In this document: positions 2,693 to 51,660 of the stretch, one piece after another
Numbering within the stretch: position 1 is the first letter of the stretch
Layout: each line of letters begins with the position of its first letter
Origin: a virus
DNA length: 64,000 nt
Strand: one strand, 5' to 3'
Virus record (IMG/VR): IMGVR_UViG_3300022602_002721
Location: 1-64,000 of that record
Position numbers and translations under genes: made by a program
The notes under the pieces: model-generated
Told to the model about the DNA's origin: nothing
Database searches by the model: none
What the model saw: only the letters and a program-made list of their open reading frames with translations

Positions 2693-3490
2693 ATGAGCAA
2701 AAACAACTTTTTTACAGTAGGGTCGTTTGGAGACACTATATATAGCCTAAATTTAGTTAAGATCTTAGGTGGCGGCAATATGTATGTAAAACTTAATGCT
2801 ATGGACGACTTTGCTCAAAGAGTGTTAGGTTGGAAAGATGCAGGACCTGCTAAGGGCCGTTATACACAGCAAGACTATGACGTACTAGAACCTTTGCTCA
2901 AAGCACAGGATTATTTGGATACCGTAGCTGTTTGGAATGGCGAACAGTTAGACTACAACTTTGAAGATCACTACAAGTATCACATGATCAAAGGTTGGCA
3001 GGGAAATCAAACAGAGTGCTATGCTCTTACACAAGGTATGGACATACACAGCCCAGATCTAAGAAAAAAACTTCTTTTAGAGCCTTGGTTAACTCCTGTT
3101 ACACCTACTGTGATACCAGGAAAGCCTATCGTAGTTAACCGTACAGTTCGTTATTTGTATGGCGCACCTAGCGAAGAATGGACTACTTGGGTAGAAAACG
3201 GGCTAGGAGATTACGGTGTGTTCGTTGGATCAGAGAAAGAACACGCAGACTTTGAAGATATGTTCAAGGTCAAAATTGAATACTACAAAACAAAAGACTT
3301 ACTAGAGCTAGCACAGGTCATACAAGGCTGTGAACAGTTCATTGGCAATCAATCTGTAGCACTTAGTATTGCTATTGGACTAGGCAAATCATATCAATGT
3401 GAAGTTCGCAAAGATTATGAAAACACACGAACACCACATGGGGGGTACGGTGATACCTGGTTCCCAAGAATAAACGGATTTTATTTCTAA
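2693..3490 (+). CDS. heptosyltransferase-like glycosyltransferase (GT9-like)
   Basis: About 265 residues from the ATG at 2693, preceded by AAGG; a longer frame opens at 2633 but would begin at the promoter. The N-terminus (TVGSFGDTIYSLNLVKIL) and the C-terminal half (FVGSEKEHADFE ... FIGNQSVALSIAIGLGK) resemble the nucleotide-sugar-binding half of ADP-heptose:LPS heptosyltransferases. It is first in a plus-strand run with TAATG overlap to the next gene. It probably transfers a sugar to a host or virion surface glycan; substrate unknown. Confidence 0.6.
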   Translation: MSKNNFFTVGSFGDTIYSLNLVKILGGGNMYVKLNAMDDFAQRVLGWKDAGPAKGRYTQQDYDVLEPLLKAQDYLDTVAVWNGEQLDYNFEDHYKYHMIKGWQGNQTECYALTQGMDIHSPDLRKKLLLEPWLTPVTPTVIPGKPIVVNRTVRYLYGAPSEEWTTWVENGLGDYGVFVGSEKEHADFEDMFKVKIEYYKTKDLLELAQVIQGCEQFIGNQSVALSIAIGLGKSYQCEVRKDYENTRTPHGGYGDTWFPRINGFYF

Positions 3491-4209
3491 TGTACGCACT
3501 CATAACACATCATGACATTGGCTATAAGCCATTGGCAGACTTAACTTGGGATGGCAACAAGTTATTATATGCACAGCAACACGGATATGCTACTCATGCT
3601 AGAACAGGCGATTGGGTTACAATGCAACCAAATGGTCTAATGACTGGCTTTGAAAAGATATATTTGGCAAAACAAACACTAGAAGAACATCCAGAGTACG
3701 AATGGATTTGGTGGACAGGTACTGATACCATGATTACTAATTTTTCTACAAGAATAGAAGATCGAGTAAACAATGCTTATCACTTTATAGTATGTGTTGA
3801 CATCAATGGTATAAATGCAGATAGCTTCTTAGTACGCAACACACTAGAAGGTCGTGGATTCCTAGACGAGATAATTGCTTGTGAAAAAGAATACATGAAG
3901 TTTTGGGATACAGAACAGCGAGCAATCGCAAACTTATTAGGATTGCCAGGCACAGGAGATCCGGGTTGGCCTATGCCAGGACATGTTAAGGTAAATGAAC
4001 GTTACCGTGATATCGTTAAAGTAATGCCACAGCGATACATGAATTCGTTTAACTATCAGATATATGGTAATACCTATAGTCACAGCAGAGATAAACTAGG
4101 CTATGACGGTAATTGGCAGTTCGGTGATTGGCTAATTCATTGGCCAGGAACACAGTTACCTCTCAGAAAAGACTTGGCAAACGCTTATAAACAATATATA
4201 ATACTATAA
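3490..4209 (+). CDS. glycosyltransferase, GT34/MNN10-like
   Basis: 239 residues. WIWWTGTDTMITN resembles the acidic nucleotide-sugar metal-binding motif of the galactosyl/mannosyltransferase GMA12/MNN10 family, and VCVDINGINADSFLVRNT the acceptor-side segment of that family. The start overlaps the stop of the upstream gene and the stop overlaps the next start, so translation is coupled. No membrane segment or signal peptide is visible, so it is probably cytosolic. Linkage unknown. Confidence 0.6.
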   Translation: MYALITHHDIGYKPLADLTWDGNKLLYAQQHGYATHARTGDWVTMQPNGLMTGFEKIYLAKQTLEEHPEYEWIWWTGTDTMITNFSTRIEDRVNNAYHFIVCVDINGINADSFLVRNTLEGRGFLDEIIACEKEYMKFWDTEQRAIANLLGLPGTGDPGWPMPGHVKVNERYRDIVKVMPQRYMNSFNYQIYGNTYSHSRDKLGYDGNWQFGDWLIHWPGTQLPLRKDLANAYKQYIIL

Positions 4210-38465: not shown

Positions 38466-38972
38466 TCAGCTATTCAACACCTTGGCAACACTATTCATTA
38501 CAGCGGCAATACGTCCAATGTCACGAAGTTGTTCTACTGTGTATCCTTCCTTCTTCAATGTTTCGTAGTGCGCCTTGACGCAGAAATGACACTTGCCAAC
38601 AATACTTGCGGCAAGACTGAACGCTTCAAAGTTGCTCTTTGTAGTTCCGCCATGACTTGCGATTGCGTTCATGCGTAACTGTGCTGGCAAACCTTTTAGC
38701 TGTTCATCATCAGCCATTTCAACGTAAGGATACCAAATGTTGTTTTGGGCCATGAGGCTTGCGGCAGTCATCGCTGACTCTGCGTGTACTGGCGCATCTG
38801 CTAATAGGATACTTAATACCTTACCGTTACCAGTTGCGGCCAATGCGGCTACAGCACAACCCCTGGCCACATCTGTATCTAAGGTACTACGCAAAAGGAC
38901 AGCGTCAAGATTTAACTTGGTGTCCTTTGCGTAGCCTGGCAACGCTTCTTTGATAGTGTCGTTGAATGCCAT
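38466..38972 (-). CDS. ahpD: AhpD-like alkylhydroperoxidase
   Basis: 168 residues. GKCHFCVKAHYETLKKEGY contains the CxxC-x3-H active-site motif of the carboxymuconolactone decarboxylase/AhpD family. AhpD reduces oxidised AhpC. Its start overlaps the ahpC stop (TAATG), so they form one peroxide-defence operon. Confidence 0.87.
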   Translation of the reverse strand: MAFNDTIKEALPGYAKDTKLNLDAVLLRSTLDTDVARGCAVAALAATGNGKVLSILLADAPVHAESAMTAASLMAQNNIWYPYVEMADDEQLKGLPAQLRMNAIASHGGTTKSNFEAFSLAASIVGKCHFCVKAHYETLKKEGYTVEQLRDIGRIAAVMNSVAKVLNS

Positions 38973-39511
38973 TATAGTGTCTCTCCGCCTACTGTACGGT
39001 TACATGCACATAGCTCGCCTGTTTGAAGAGCATCAAGGATACGCAAAGTTTCTTCTGGGCTACGGCCAACATTCAAATTGTTTACTGTAACATGTTGGAT
39101 AACATTGTCTGGATCAACGATGAATGTAGCACGAAGTGCCGCACCTGCTGGAGCATAGAATACTCCCAACTGCTCGATCAATGATAACTCACCACGCTGT
39201 GTGTCTGCAAATTGATTGTGACGAATGTTCTTTAAATCTGGATGTGCATTTTGCCATGCTAGTTTACAAAACTCGTTATCTGTGCTACCTGTTAGTAGAA
39301 CAGCATCACGATCGTCAAAGTCTGCGGCCAATTTATCATAAGCAACAATTTCTGTAGGGCAAACAAATGTAAAGTCCTTTGGGTAGTAAACGATTACTTT
39401 CCACTTGCCAGCAAAGCTCTCATCTGTAATGTCAAAGAACGCATCTTCTGGCTGACCAAACTTAACGCCTGTTACAGCAAATTTTTCTAATTTATGTCCA
39501 ACTGTTTTCAT
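38972..39511 (-). CDS. ahpC: peroxiredoxin AhpC
   Basis: 179 residues. YPKDFTFVCPTEI holds the peroxidatic cysteine; the C-terminal ELCACNRTVGG holds resolving cysteines in the AhpD-partner (mycobacterial) style. Reduces H2O2 and organic peroxides. SD AAGGAG; promoter at 39567-39595. Confidence 0.9.
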   Translation of the reverse strand: MKTVGHKLEKFAVTGVKFGQPEDAFFDITDESFAGKWKVIVYYPKDFTFVCPTEIVAYDKLAADFDDRDAVLLTGSTDNEFCKLAWQNAHPDLKNIRHNQFADTQRGELSLIEQLGVFYAPAGAALRATFIVDPDNVIQHVTVNNLNVGRSPEETLRILDALQTGELCACNRTVGGETL

Positions 39512-39657: not shown

Positions 39658-40233
39658 TCAGCTGTATTCATATGGTGTGCTAGGGTGCCCATAATCCACA
39701 GGAATGTTATCACTCTTAACATTGTCGTAATTTTGGTAGTAGCTTTCATTTGGTTTAAGTATCCTAAAGTCTTTAGTATATTTCAAACTAGCCAAAGTTA
39801 CTTCGGACTTGTTTAACAAATCACATACCACGTACGAAGTGCTACATGCCGCACTGATATACTTAAATGGGCTATGCTTGTATTCATTTTGAATTAGTCC
39901 TTTATGTATAGGTGAGTGAGGCAAGAACATGATACGAGTAATACCTAACTTTTGGTTACGTAATCGTAATTTGTCTAAAAATGTTAATTCGGTGAGTGTA
40001 GCTTCGTTGTCGTCACTAACTCTTAATAAAGCGTTCTTGACTTTGATGCTACCTTTTGTGTGATTGTTATCAGGCGTTTCCTTAGTACTCCAAGGTAGCT
40101 GACAATCCACATGATTTACATACAATGTTTCCCCATGAAATTTTAAGACCCACATAGGAATGGTCTGATCTTCTAAGTGTTTTTTATTAAAATGGAAGAC
40201 GATATCGCGGCATGCGTACTCTATCTATTTCAT
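39658..40233 (-). CDS. phage protein with in-frame amber codon at position 3
   Basis: The best start is ATG 40233, 8-9 nt after AAAGGAA, reading ATG-AAA-TAG and then an open frame through IEYACRDIVFHFNKK into MWVLKFHGETLYVNHVDC, down to TGA 39658 (191 codons). Without readthrough the first usable ATG is 40155, which has no clear SD. The body (STKETPDNNHTKGSIKVKN, DKLRLRNQKLGITRIMFLP) looks like a conserved phage protein of unknown function. A tRNA with a CUA anticodon is encoded 315 nt upstream. Confidence 0.6.
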
Positions 40234-40309
40234 TTTGTTTTCCTTTAGTTAAGTGCAGGGCTTCCACCTACTTCCACCTCGTTTTAAAGTCCGCGTGTCC
40301 AGGACTTTT

Positions 40310-40317
40310 TATTTATA
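40310..40317 (-). promoter_or_regulatory. T4-type late promoter motif
   Basis: TATAAATA at the 3' end of the 40313 gene, about 77 nt upstream of ATG 40233. Confidence 0.55.
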
Positions 40318-40534
40318 CTGGTACTTCGATCAGTTGAAAAATTCGCCAATCTCTACGATCGGCTCGCTTTTCTTTCTTATCCTGCTCTTGTACATACTTC
40401 AAGAAGTTTTGAGCTTGCTCCATAGTACCATAGAAGTGTTCATTGCCATAAGCATAGCAACCTACTGAGCCGCTTTCGCCTTCCCAGTAGTGTCCTACAG
40501 CATAGTTGAATTGTTTAGATTGTTTCTTTGGCAT
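40313..40534 (-). CDS. small phage protein, unknown
   Basis: About 73 residues from ATG 40534; the open frame extends to 40621 but would run through the amber tRNA. Sequence YAVGHYWEGESGSVGCYAYG, then EQAQNFLKYVQEQDKKEKRA. Its stop overlaps the late motif. Function unknown. Confidence 0.5.
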   Translation of the reverse strand: MPKKQSKQFNYAVGHYWEGESGSVGCYAYGNEHFYGTMEQAQNFLKYVQEQDKKEKRADRRDWRIFQLIEVPV

Positions 40535-40547
40535 GTGATACTTCAAT

Positions 40548-40624
40548 TGGTGCGTTGGATGGGAATCGAACCCACTACATGATGATTTAGAGTCACCTGC
40601 CCTTACCTTACGGGCTACCAACGC
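40548..40624 (-). tRNA. amber-reading tRNA (CUA anticodon)
   Basis: Complete cloverleaf: acceptor GCGUUGG/CCAACGC, discriminator A, encoded CCA; D-stem GCCC/GGGC; anticodon stem GGUGA/UCAUC around loop CUCUAAA, giving CUA; T-arm GUGGG-UUCGAUU-CCCAU. CUA pairs with UAG. It lies alone, 39 kb from the array. The charged amino acid cannot be told from sequence; the anticodon arm looks lysine-like. Confidence 0.88.
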
Positions 40625-42193: not shown

Positions 42194-43591
42194 TCAGCTG
42201 TTACTATTTTGGCGAACTTCGTCAAAAGTAATTTCTTTAACAAGTTTACCATCACGGTATACTTCTTCAAGCATTTCAGTAAATGGACCAAAGCCCTTGT
42301 CAAACCAACCCTTTGGCTGATCAACTGCGCTTACCCATTCGTTGCCGCCCTTCCAAAGTGATACACGACCTGCTTTAGATTTCTTACCACTATCAGTAAT
42401 TGGATCTTTTTGTACATCAATCCATTCACCATTAATGCAAGCACTGGAGCATTTCATCGCAAACTTTTGAGTATCGCGATCTAGTTGTTGCAACAATGCA
42501 CCACCCATACCAAATGCGATGTTATCTGCACTCCAACCATATGCTTGGAAGCTACCAAGTATATTACGGATAGTACGTTCGTTTACACCGTCACCTTGGA
42601 TAAGGCGAACGTTGTTAAGGACTTTATAGCCTTTGTCGTTAGTAGTATATCCAAACTTGTCGCCAAGTATCTGGACTAGTTTACGACACACGACATCGGG
42701 ATCACCGCTGTCAGGACGTATAACAATAGTAGCGCCACTAGCAACCACTTGCTCTTTGAGTTCTTCTCCCCAAAGACGACTAGCGGCATTATAAACATCA
42801 TAGCTATCAGATACAACAGCAACGATACTGCCAGGTTTGGCGAATTGAGTGAGCATATTTCTGTAAGCATCTACTTCACCGTCACGGCCCCAGCTAGTAA
42901 TTGTGCTATGCTCTGCGGCAGGGATTGAGAAGCCAGCAATCCCAGCGTTATAGTACTCACGAGCAAACAACAGACCGGTAACAGTATCGGTGCCCATGAA
43001 ATTAACGAGGTGTGCCGCCCCTCCAATTCCAGCACTTTCCATGCTAGAGACACCACGAGCACCAAAATCGTGCAACTTAAAATCAATAGTAGTAGGATCA
43101 CCTGTTTTCTCCAAATAGTCTAAGATAATTTTCTTAATTGTTTTGCTTTGAGTAGCAACTGTAGTAGGATACCAAATTGCACGAAGCAAGGCTGTTTCCA
43201 ACCATGTAGTTAACCAGAAACATTCTGGATCTGTGTTTTCAATTGTTGCCAAAACGTTCTTAACAGGAACTACTGTACCTTCAGGTACTGCCCTGATAAC
43301 CACAGGCAAGTAACCGCCGTGTGTATCAAGAATGTACTGCCAACCTTCTTTGTTAAAAGGTTCACCGTGCGCTGTCCAAATTTCATTTGCGATATCGATA
43401 TCAGCTTGTGTAATTGGATCGAGCAAGTACTCTTTGATAAAAGCCTGTAGTCCGAAGAATACAGTTTCGTCATAGCGTCCGCCACGTGATTCAATGTAAC
43501 TATAAACACCTGTGGTGCCCATAGGATATTGTTTGAACATACTAGCTTTGTAGCTGTCTGTGTTGAGAATGATGTTTTTTGCGAGTTTCAT
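42194..43591 (-). CDS. nadV: nicotinamide phosphoribosyltransferase
   Basis: 465 residues, typical NAMPT length. LHDFGARGVSSMESAGIGGAAHL, DSYDVYNAASRLWGEEL and IRPDSGDP are NAMPT/NadV signatures. Makes NMN from nicotinamide and PRPP. Directly downstream of the NMN adenylyltransferase gene: a two-step NAD salvage route known in phages such as KVP40 and shown to counter NAD-depleting immunity. Confidence 0.92.
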   Translation of the reverse strand: MKLAKNIILNTDSYKASMFKQYPMGTTGVYSYIESRGGRYDETVFFGLQAFIKEYLLDPITQADIDIANEIWTAHGEPFNKEGWQYILDTHGGYLPVVIRAVPEGTVVPVKNVLATIENTDPECFWLTTWLETALLRAIWYPTTVATQSKTIKKIILDYLEKTGDPTTIDFKLHDFGARGVSSMESAGIGGAAHLVNFMGTDTVTGLLFAREYYNAGIAGFSIPAAEHSTITSWGRDGEVDAYRNMLTQFAKPGSIVAVVSDSYDVYNAASRLWGEELKEQVVASGATIVIRPDSGDPDVVCRKLVQILGDKFGYTTNDKGYKVLNNVRLIQGDGVNERTIRNILGSFQAYGWSADNIAFGMGGALLQQLDRDTQKFAMKCSSACINGEWIDVQKDPITDSGKKSKAGRVSLWKGGNEWVSAVDQPKGWFDKGFGPFTEMLEEVYRDGKLVKEITFDEVRQNSNS

Positions 43592-43631
43592 TTTAAGTTC
43601 CTTAAAAGTTAAAAGCCTTTGCGTCTATCGC

Positions 43632-44657
43632 TTAGGCACCTACGAAGTGTTGTAGGATTTCGTAGTGGTCTTCAAAGCAGTCTTCCGACTTCACTTCAGC
43701 TATAGGCACCCACCGAGCCTTTTCAGCGTCATCACTTCCTTTTACCTTAGGTAGTTCGCCGTCTGGTAATTGAATGTGAAACGCATGAGTAATAATGCGA
43801 CCACGTGGACTACGGTCAATCGCATCAAAAACCTTACTGCGTACAATGCTACCTTTCAATACAGGAGCAGGTACTTTAATCTGTGTTTCTTCACGTAGTT
43901 CACGCAACATAGCATCTTCTACTGTGCGGTCTGTAGTAGCGTTTACATAACCTCCTGGCAATGCCCAAAGGCCTCGTCCTGGCTCTGCTCTACGCTTAAT
44001 CAACAACACGTGACCTGATTGGATAACAACAGCATCTGCTGTGCTAAAGATTGGAGGATACTTTAGGCCAGCGTATTGCTTTTTGTATTCAACTACAAAT
44101 TCACGCTCACGAATTACTTGTTCGTATTCTGGGGTATCCTTAAATTTATCAAGGAAGTCGTATGTAGTTTGTGGTACTACACCTTTAATAAACTTCATGT
44201 TGACATCACGCTTGAAGTATAGTTCACGGATGTCTGTAGCGTCTAAAGGCTCAAGCAATTCTACTTCTTCAAATCCCCATTGTGGGAACATGTCTAAGTA
44301 GAATGAGCTAGGATCTTTACGGTGTCCAATAATACCAATCTTGTCGCCTGGCTTGGTGTGTTTGGCAACCAATGCCTGTACACGAACAGCCCACGCTTGG
44401 TCGTTGTAAATGGTATCTGGGTTAGGTTCGATGCTAACAGTAAGTACTCCGCCATAACCACGAGTAGCTTCGTAAATCATATCACGACGTTCCTGGAACG
44501 TAAACGGGTTCTTGTAAGTGCGTGGCTGATTAGCAGAGCCGCAGATAAAAACTAATTTGTCAGCGTGTGCTGTAGCACGTTGCGCCAATAGTAAATGGGC
44601 ATTATGAAATGGTTGAAAACGTCCAATGAGGACTAGGGTGTCATATTTCTTAGGCAT
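43632..44657 (-). CDS. nadM: bifunctional NMN adenylyltransferase / Nudix hydrolase
   Basis: About 341 residues from ATG 44657 (SD AAAGGA); codons upstream overlap the promoter. N-terminal nucleotidyltransferase: GRFQPFHNAH (HxGH-like) and ISxxS-like region. C-terminal Nudix domain: LWALPGGYVNATTDRTVEDA then LRELREET. Converts NMN to NAD; the Nudix half may clear ADP-ribose. Confidence 0.9.
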   Translation of the reverse strand: MPKKYDTLVLIGRFQPFHNAHLLLAQRATAHADKLVFICGSANQPRTYKNPFTFQERRDMIYEATRGYGGVLTVSIEPNPDTIYNDQAWAVRVQALVAKHTKPGDKIGIIGHRKDPSSFYLDMFPQWGFEEVELLEPLDATDIRELYFKRDVNMKFIKGVVPQTTYDFLDKFKDTPEYEQVIREREFVVEYKKQYAGLKYPPIFSTADAVVIQSGHVLLIKRRAEPGRGLWALPGGYVNATTDRTVEDAMLRELREETQIKVPAPVLKGSIVRSKVFDAIDRSPRGRIITHAFHIQLPDGELPKVKGSDDAEKARWVPIAEVKSEDCFEDHYEILQHFVGA

Positions 44658-44723
44658 ACAAAAATCCTTTGTATAGTTTGTTGCGCTGGGTCTATCCCGT
44701 TGCATGATTTTATTTATGTATAT

Positions 44724-51272: not shown

Positions 51273-51302
51273 AGTATATATCCAGGATACTACTGATGTC
51301 AA
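51273..51302 (-). promoter_or_regulatory. promoter of outer-membrane protein gene
   Basis: TTGACA, 18-nt spacer, TATACT, directly after the tmRNA terminator. Confidence 0.7.
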
Positions 51303-51314
51303 GTAAATTTGGGT

Positions 51315-51625
51315 CAAAGAAAAAGCACCCGAAGGTGCTTTTTGGTATTTTCTGTTACGAGGTATTTCCTACCCTAGTCAGCTGTTAAGCTGCCAATGCG
51401 TAAACGTTGTCGTTTGCGTTTATAGGTTTTGCTTGATTTACAGTCATCGCCTACTGTGTTGCCGTCTTCACTATCTCACCATGTCGAAACCAGGTCATCC
51501 CCATCAAAAACACATTCTGTTACATGTCACCGTTTCGCGCCTACGGTCGAATATGTTTTTGGTGGAGATGGGCGGAATCGAACCGCCGTCCACAGCGCCT
51601 TTGATCCAAAGGAATTACAACAATT
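51315..51625 (-). ncRNA. ssrA: circularly permuted two-piece tmRNA
   Basis: On the minus strand the acceptor half comes first: T-arm GGCGG-UUCGAUU-CCGCC and CAUCUCC-ACCA ending at 51560. After a 57-nt spacer the coding half begins at 51502 with GGGGAUG, which pairs perfectly with CAUCUCC. The tag ORF (51417-51385) reads ANDNVYALAA then TAA. A terminator hairpin (AAAAAGCACC...GGUGCUUUUU) ends it near 51315. The promoter is a perfect consensus. tmRNA tags stalled proteins for proteolysis; permuted genes are known from alphaproteobacteria, some betaproteobacteria and cyanobacteria. Confidence 0.92.
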
Positions 51626-51631
51626 ACTGCT

Positions 51632-51660
51632 ATTATACATTTATTTTAATAGTCTGTCAA
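51632..51660 (-). promoter_or_regulatory. tmRNA promoter, perfect consensus
   Basis: TTGACA, 17-nt spacer, TATAAT; the predicted start is near 51625. Confidence 0.85.

Follow-up and report, generated by a model that had tools for sequence, protein, structure and literature searches.

The window analysed here, a 64,000-nucleotide stretch of DNA, lies in a 71,687-bp IMG/VR virus record (IMGVR_UViG_3300022602_002721). ARAGORN finds a tRNA with a CUA anticodon at 40548–40624 on the minus strand, and Rfam RF00005 agrees with a score of 58.4 bits against a cut-off of 29. This amber suppressor tRNA has the acceptor stem GCGUUGG/CCAACGC, discriminator A73, and an encoded ACCA end; the label tRNA-Pyl assigned by ARAGORN reflects only the CUA anticodon. 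A small ORF on the same strand (40313–40534; MPKKQSKQFNYAV...) separates the tRNA from the next gene and matches no family in Pfam or PHROGs. The Shine-Dalgarno (SD) sequence AAAGGA (40241–40246, minus strand) is placed for an ATG at 40231–40233, 315 nt downstream of the tRNA. The ATG is followed by AAA, an in-frame TAG at codon 3 (40225–40227), and 188 open codons (ATA GAG TAC...) that end at TGA 39658–39660. A conserved coding block, IEYACRDIVFHFNKKHLEDQTIP (40156–40224), separates the TAG from the internal ATG at 40155, where the first ORF begins under the standard code. The whole gene (39658–40233, minus strand) would encode 191 amino acids if the TAG is read. A leader element, AAGTCCTGGACACGCGGACTT, lies at 40287–40307, some 50 nt before the gate. 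It occurs once in the window and is also found before the gate in a few relatives (viral contigs L006–L008, L014, and L129), but has no Rfam match; Rfam likewise returned no riboswitch at the leader. Genes of the AhpC/TSA and carboxymuconolactone-decarboxylase families lie just downstream of the gated gene (38466–39511), whereas 42194–44705 holds an NAD salvage pair consisting of NAMPT-like and cytidylyltransferase-NUDIX genes. The window also encodes a tmRNA (51294–51652), as do many relatives, in which Rfam assigns the permuted or betaproteobacterial type; in several loci, it lies near the gated gene and tRNA-CUA. TAG ends 8 of 91 raw ORFs in the window. The arrangement described in a previous sequence-only reading, an amber-decoding tRNA beside a gene with a TAG at codon 3 in a genome where TAG is a minority stop, is therefore confirmed, and it extends well beyond this one locus.

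To determine whether the stop codon is conserved, we collected relatives of the gated gene, designated here the module gene. A protein search of viral contigs gave 80 relatives and a profile search gave 383, of which 80 were kept. Read upstream of the internal Met, nearly all show an SD, an ATG, one to five codons, TAG, and the conserved block. After removal of duplicates, 108 distinct genes from IMG/VR and one cultured phage remained, although these relatives are not independent and several contigs are fragments. TAG is present in 106 of the 108, at codon 3 in 76 of them, and none has TAA or TGA at that place, which excludes chance. The two exceptions (contigs L077 and L112) have ATG there. 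Residues before the TAG are variable (K, A, S, Q, TQ, SQQ), whereas those after it are conserved (IEYACKDVVFHFNKKHLEDQTIP). The ratio pN/pS is 0.31 for the nine codons after the TAG and 0.12 for the next fourteen, which indicates purifying selection. The nucleotide after the TAG is A in 101 genes and G in 5; a purine in this position is the context that favours amber suppression. The SD keeps its distance to the ATG while the TAG moves by up to three codons, indicating that initiation is at the ATG. In several relatives (L009, L018, L027, and L028), a hairpin-like sequence, GGGGGTGAAAGTCCCCC, directly precedes the SD. The sequence-only reading had named homologues that all start at the internal Met as the result that would count against it; this did not occur. 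A general scan for early-stop ORFs gave about equal raw numbers for TAG, TGA, and TAA, so only conservation distinguishes real gates.

About 79 distinct relatives of the tRNA lie near the same gene. By ARAGORN, 123 of 163 loci hold a tRNA-CUA, one each; this association was measured around the gene without a matched sample of random phage loci. CUA is by far the commonest anticodon around the gene (123; the next has 29). The 77 distinct tRNAs-CUA in the ARAGORN set are all on the strand of the gene and 75 lie upstream, typically under 1.5 kb away, with a median distance of 745 nt. The other tRNAs in these loci are on that strand too, so strand alone is weak evidence. ARAGORN misses some tRNAs-CUA with short D arms as well as those of a whole jumbo-phage clade that seemed to lack one. 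In this clade (L079 at 4765, L080 at 2465, L081 at 4815, and others), the tRNA-CUA lies about 100–250 nt upstream of the gate and has an aberrant T arm (GGATCGTTACC or GGCTCGATACC). A tRNA with an unusual AGU anticodon is also conserved near the gated gene in a tRNA-rich jumbo clade (L079 6325–6398, L080 3318–3393, L097, L105, L107, L130, L136, and L153). The bodies of the tRNAs-CUA differ widely, but G1-C72, C2-G71, and mostly A73 are kept, and the anticodon loop is nearly always YTCTAAA. A comparison with the nearest isoacceptors revealed no consistent parent (Val, Trp, Arg, Met), so the inserted amino acid cannot be read off.

The protein encoded by the module gene resembles no established family. 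Neither Pfam, including PTH2 (PF01981), nor PHROGs gave a hit at E 0.1, a megablast of 20 kb against cultured phages returned nothing, and a search of bacterial genomes found no relative of the module. The protein, for which a structural model has a mean pLDDT of 85, comprises an N-terminal beta domain with a WW-like stretch and a C-terminal alpha/beta domain. For a WW domain, there were weak hits to NEDD4L and Itchy (E 0.02 and up) over about 18 positions. Fold searches gave no PDB match with E under 0.001, and VIA-align Z scores were at most 5.8, covering only the C-terminal domain, which is a common arrangement. Among cultured phages, Rhizobium phage RHph_I1_18 contains ATGAGTGAGTTCATG-TAG-AACGAATCG..., encoding a 76-aa version after the TAG, with tRNA-CUA immediately downstream. 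In Phosso and Atu_ph07, the module is the C-terminal part of a longer ORF without a TAG, in a run of genes that includes a PTH2 peptidyl-tRNA hydrolase and a kinase-phosphatase.

A scan of whole contigs revealed a second, unrelated gated family that shares neighbourhoods with the first. In contig G021, the module gene lacks the TAG, but a PTH2-like gene about 0.7 kb upstream on the same strand begins ATG GCA TAG ATT ACT. Relatives in viral contigs (L278, L279, and L340) also carry TAG. So do genes of cultured phages: MTH-TAG-N in BF and pEa_SNUABM_19, MAQ-TAG-N in GAP32 and CBB, MAH-TAG-N in XbC2 and Kaldavass, MT-TAG-I in ME3, ML-TAG-N in Arash, MKY-TAG-V in Phosso, MK-TAG-T on an HD-like/PTH2 fusion in XacN1 and CM1, and MK-TAG-I on a PTH2-HD fusion in pT24. 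Of these, Cronobacter phage GAP32, CBB, Serratia phage BF, ME3, Arash, XacN1, CM1, Phosso, and pT24 are jumbo phages. The uncultured LR756511 and LR756501 have MTH-TAG-V and MS-TAG-I, respectively. Matches to the PTH2 profile (PF01981; cut-off 23 bits) exceed the gathering score for Phosso (60.6 bits) and XacN1 (25.3 bits). GAP32 (17.7), L279 (21.3), and G021 (15.8) fall below it and ME3 and Arash gave none, so that membership there rests on similarity of the proteins to each other. The HD-domain assignment likewise rests on motif and homology between these proteins rather than on a Pfam match. ARAGORN gives a tRNA-CUA in GAP32, Kaldavass, ME3, Arash, XbC2, LR756511, XacN1, CM1, Phosso, pT24, LR756501, L279, and L340; the tRNA of Salmonella phage Arash (4307–4381 in its locus) is annotated as tRNA-Phe in the record, but ARAGORN reads CTA. 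The BF and CBB records annotate a tRNA-CUA, and for pEa_SNUABM_19 it rests only on a hit to a widened tRNA motif, a stricter version of which missed known cases. No tRNA-CUA was found for LR745206 (which has a gated HD gene), L278, and some short contigs. PTH2 genes without an early TAG in K64-1, RCIP0023, Hallingskeid, and phiM12 come from phages in which no tRNA-CUA was found.

Some genes of this family hold further amber codons. PTH2-like genes in L278 (3160–3520), L367 (2477–2830), and L341 (4001–4330) have an additional or sole internal in-frame TAG, and LR756501 also has a gene with further internal TAGs. In the GAP32 group, the HD-domain gene just downstream, which overlaps the end of the gated PTH2 gene (3321–3884 in the GAP32 locus L281; also L280, L282, L283, L287, and L288), has a conserved internal TAG at codon 47 (ISELDTG-TAG-GDP), where ME3 and Arash have a sense codon, probably V. 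Stops inside the PTH2/HD genes of L278 and GAP32 align with A/T or V elsewhere, which is too variable to name the inserted residue.

The strongest single argument that tRNA and gate form one device comes from a comparison of Atu_ph07 and Phosso, although it is one pair. Their PTH2 proteins are 73% identical. Phosso has TAG at codon 4 and a tRNA-CUA, whereas Atu_ph07 has TGA at codon 7 and its only suppressor tRNA has the anticodon UCA according to its authors (PMC6102473), which we confirmed with ARAGORN.

Taken together, these results suggest a model in which the gene is expressed by decoding its early UAG with the phage's own suppressor tRNA; we estimate the probability of this reading at about 0.88. 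In this view, initiation at the strong SD-ATG gives a two-codon dead end unless charged tRNA-CUA outcompetes RF1, in which case the full protein is made. Because the tRNA and the gene usually lie close together on one strand, expression would probably require phage transcription twice over, an AND gate of message plus phage tRNA that forms a coherent feed-forward loop. The same arrangement would control PTH2-type peptidyl-tRNA hydrolases and an associated HD-domain protein in other phages. Sequence comparison establishes the conservation of the stop, the conserved translation of the codons behind it, the co-occurrence of tRNA and gate, the matching change of stop codon and anticodon in one pair, the presence of the gate on different genes of one neighbourhood, and the standard code elsewhere. 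Readthrough in the cell, charging by a host synthetase, co-transcription, regulatory purpose, and timing are inferred, in the absence of expression, proteomic, or charging data. Some observations fit the model less well. Contig G013 keeps tRNA-CUA although its module gene has no TAG, so there the tRNA must have another target or be a relic, and a scan of Stenotrophomonas phage DLP5, which has tRNA-CUA, found no convincing early-TAG gene. The sequence-only reading proposed conditional readthrough that switches the protein on or changes its N-terminus late in infection, and this interpretation is partly supported: the switch is strongly supported, whereas late timing and a changed N-terminus remain suggestions. 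An on/off gate fits better than two isoforms because, in the PTH2 family, the first strand of the fold, by comparison with known PTH2, lies between the TAG and the next start.

An alternative possibility, which we consider very unlikely, is that ATG-AAA-TAG is a mini upstream ORF at which ribosomes terminate, restarting at the codon just after the TAG or at the internal Met. The codon after the TAG is ATT in 83 of 106 genes, a possible rare start, and two-codon minigenes are known in phages. However, this codon is also ATC, ATA, GTA, AAA, ACT, or AAC, and AAT or ACC in PTH2 genes. Stop identity tracks the anticodon, and a reinitiation device needs neither UAG in particular nor a tRNA-CUA. Starting at the internal Met would discard conserved sequence and, in PTH2, part of the fold. 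Still less likely is that TAG is reassigned throughout (code 15), even though a tRNA-CUA is present and a few genes (in L278, LR756501, and the GAP32 group) hold further internal TAGs. In 11 contigs, reading TAG as sense changed coding density by only −0.9 to +5.5 percentage points, short of the 10% criterion of PMC13037316, and TAG still ends 2–15% of ORFs; the scan for early-TAG genes, which did not survey internal TAGs gene by gene, found about one clear case per contig. Equally improbable is a tRNA that inserts a special, pyrrolysine-like residue, for despite the ARAGORN label and the conserved acceptor end, the tRNA is an ordinary cloverleaf with a 5-bp anticodon stem and a 5-nt variable loop rather than the 6-bp stem and very short variable loop of tRNA-Pyl, the TAG shifts by 0–2 codons relative to the conserved block, and relatives without TAG simply start there with Met.

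It is tempting to speculate that these genes represent a widespread natural class of translational switch in which a phage makes a few translation-related genes (peptidyl-tRNA hydrolase, its HD partner, and the module protein) conditional on its own suppressor tRNA. The gated enzyme would act on peptidyl-tRNAs, which early termination or drop-off at codons 2–3 may itself generate, possibly closing a loop in which the gate senses the state of termination or of the tRNA pool. This connection between peptidyl-tRNA metabolism and termination near the start codon is an idea rather than a result, and we regard the reading as tentative.

Suppressor tRNAs are found in many standard-code phages. Many large phages carry a nonsense codon two or three codons into one or two particular genes together with a matching suppressor tRNA, and licensing of these genes, which could then be made only when the phage's own tRNA is present, appears to be what such tRNAs are for. 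The authors of the XacN1 and Summit studies looked for targets of their suppressor tRNAs and could not identify any (PMC5852040, PMC9022506), whereas those of the RsoM2USA and Atu_ph07 studies inferred several unnamed targets (PMC8504454, PMC6102473). A literature search that did not extend to subscription papers and preprints found no description of early-codon amber gating in phages. The present analysis finds early-stop targets for the same kind of tRNA in XacN1 and Atu_ph07, but not in DLP5. Naming specific target genes in cultured phages makes the question testable at the bench at once. It also presents a natural tRNA-based AND gate, as inferred from comparison, and shows that gene callers omit such genes (no gene is called in BF, pEa_SNUABM_19, and RHph_I1_18) or truncate them (GAP32, CBB, and Arash).

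In phages with stop-codon reassignment (code 15; crAss-like, Lak, and phAss-1; PMC9523058, PMC8346664, PMC10607447), a phage-encoded tRNA-CUA likewise decodes UAG during infection of a standard-code host. There, TAG occurs in many genes and the code is effectively changed; here, the code is standard and the TAG sits two or three codons into one or two specific genes. The bacterial gene for RF2 (prfB) also has a nonsense codon near the start of a translation-related gene that controls its expression, but prfB uses +1 frameshifting at an in-frame UGA and senses RF2, whereas here a suppressor tRNA would read the codon in frame. The same logic is seen in a synthetic feed-forward "leak dampener" in E. 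coli (PMC7969014), in which an amber-interrupted gene and a suppressor tRNA form a coherent feed-forward AND gate; that system is engineered, whereas the arrangement described here is natural and conserved.
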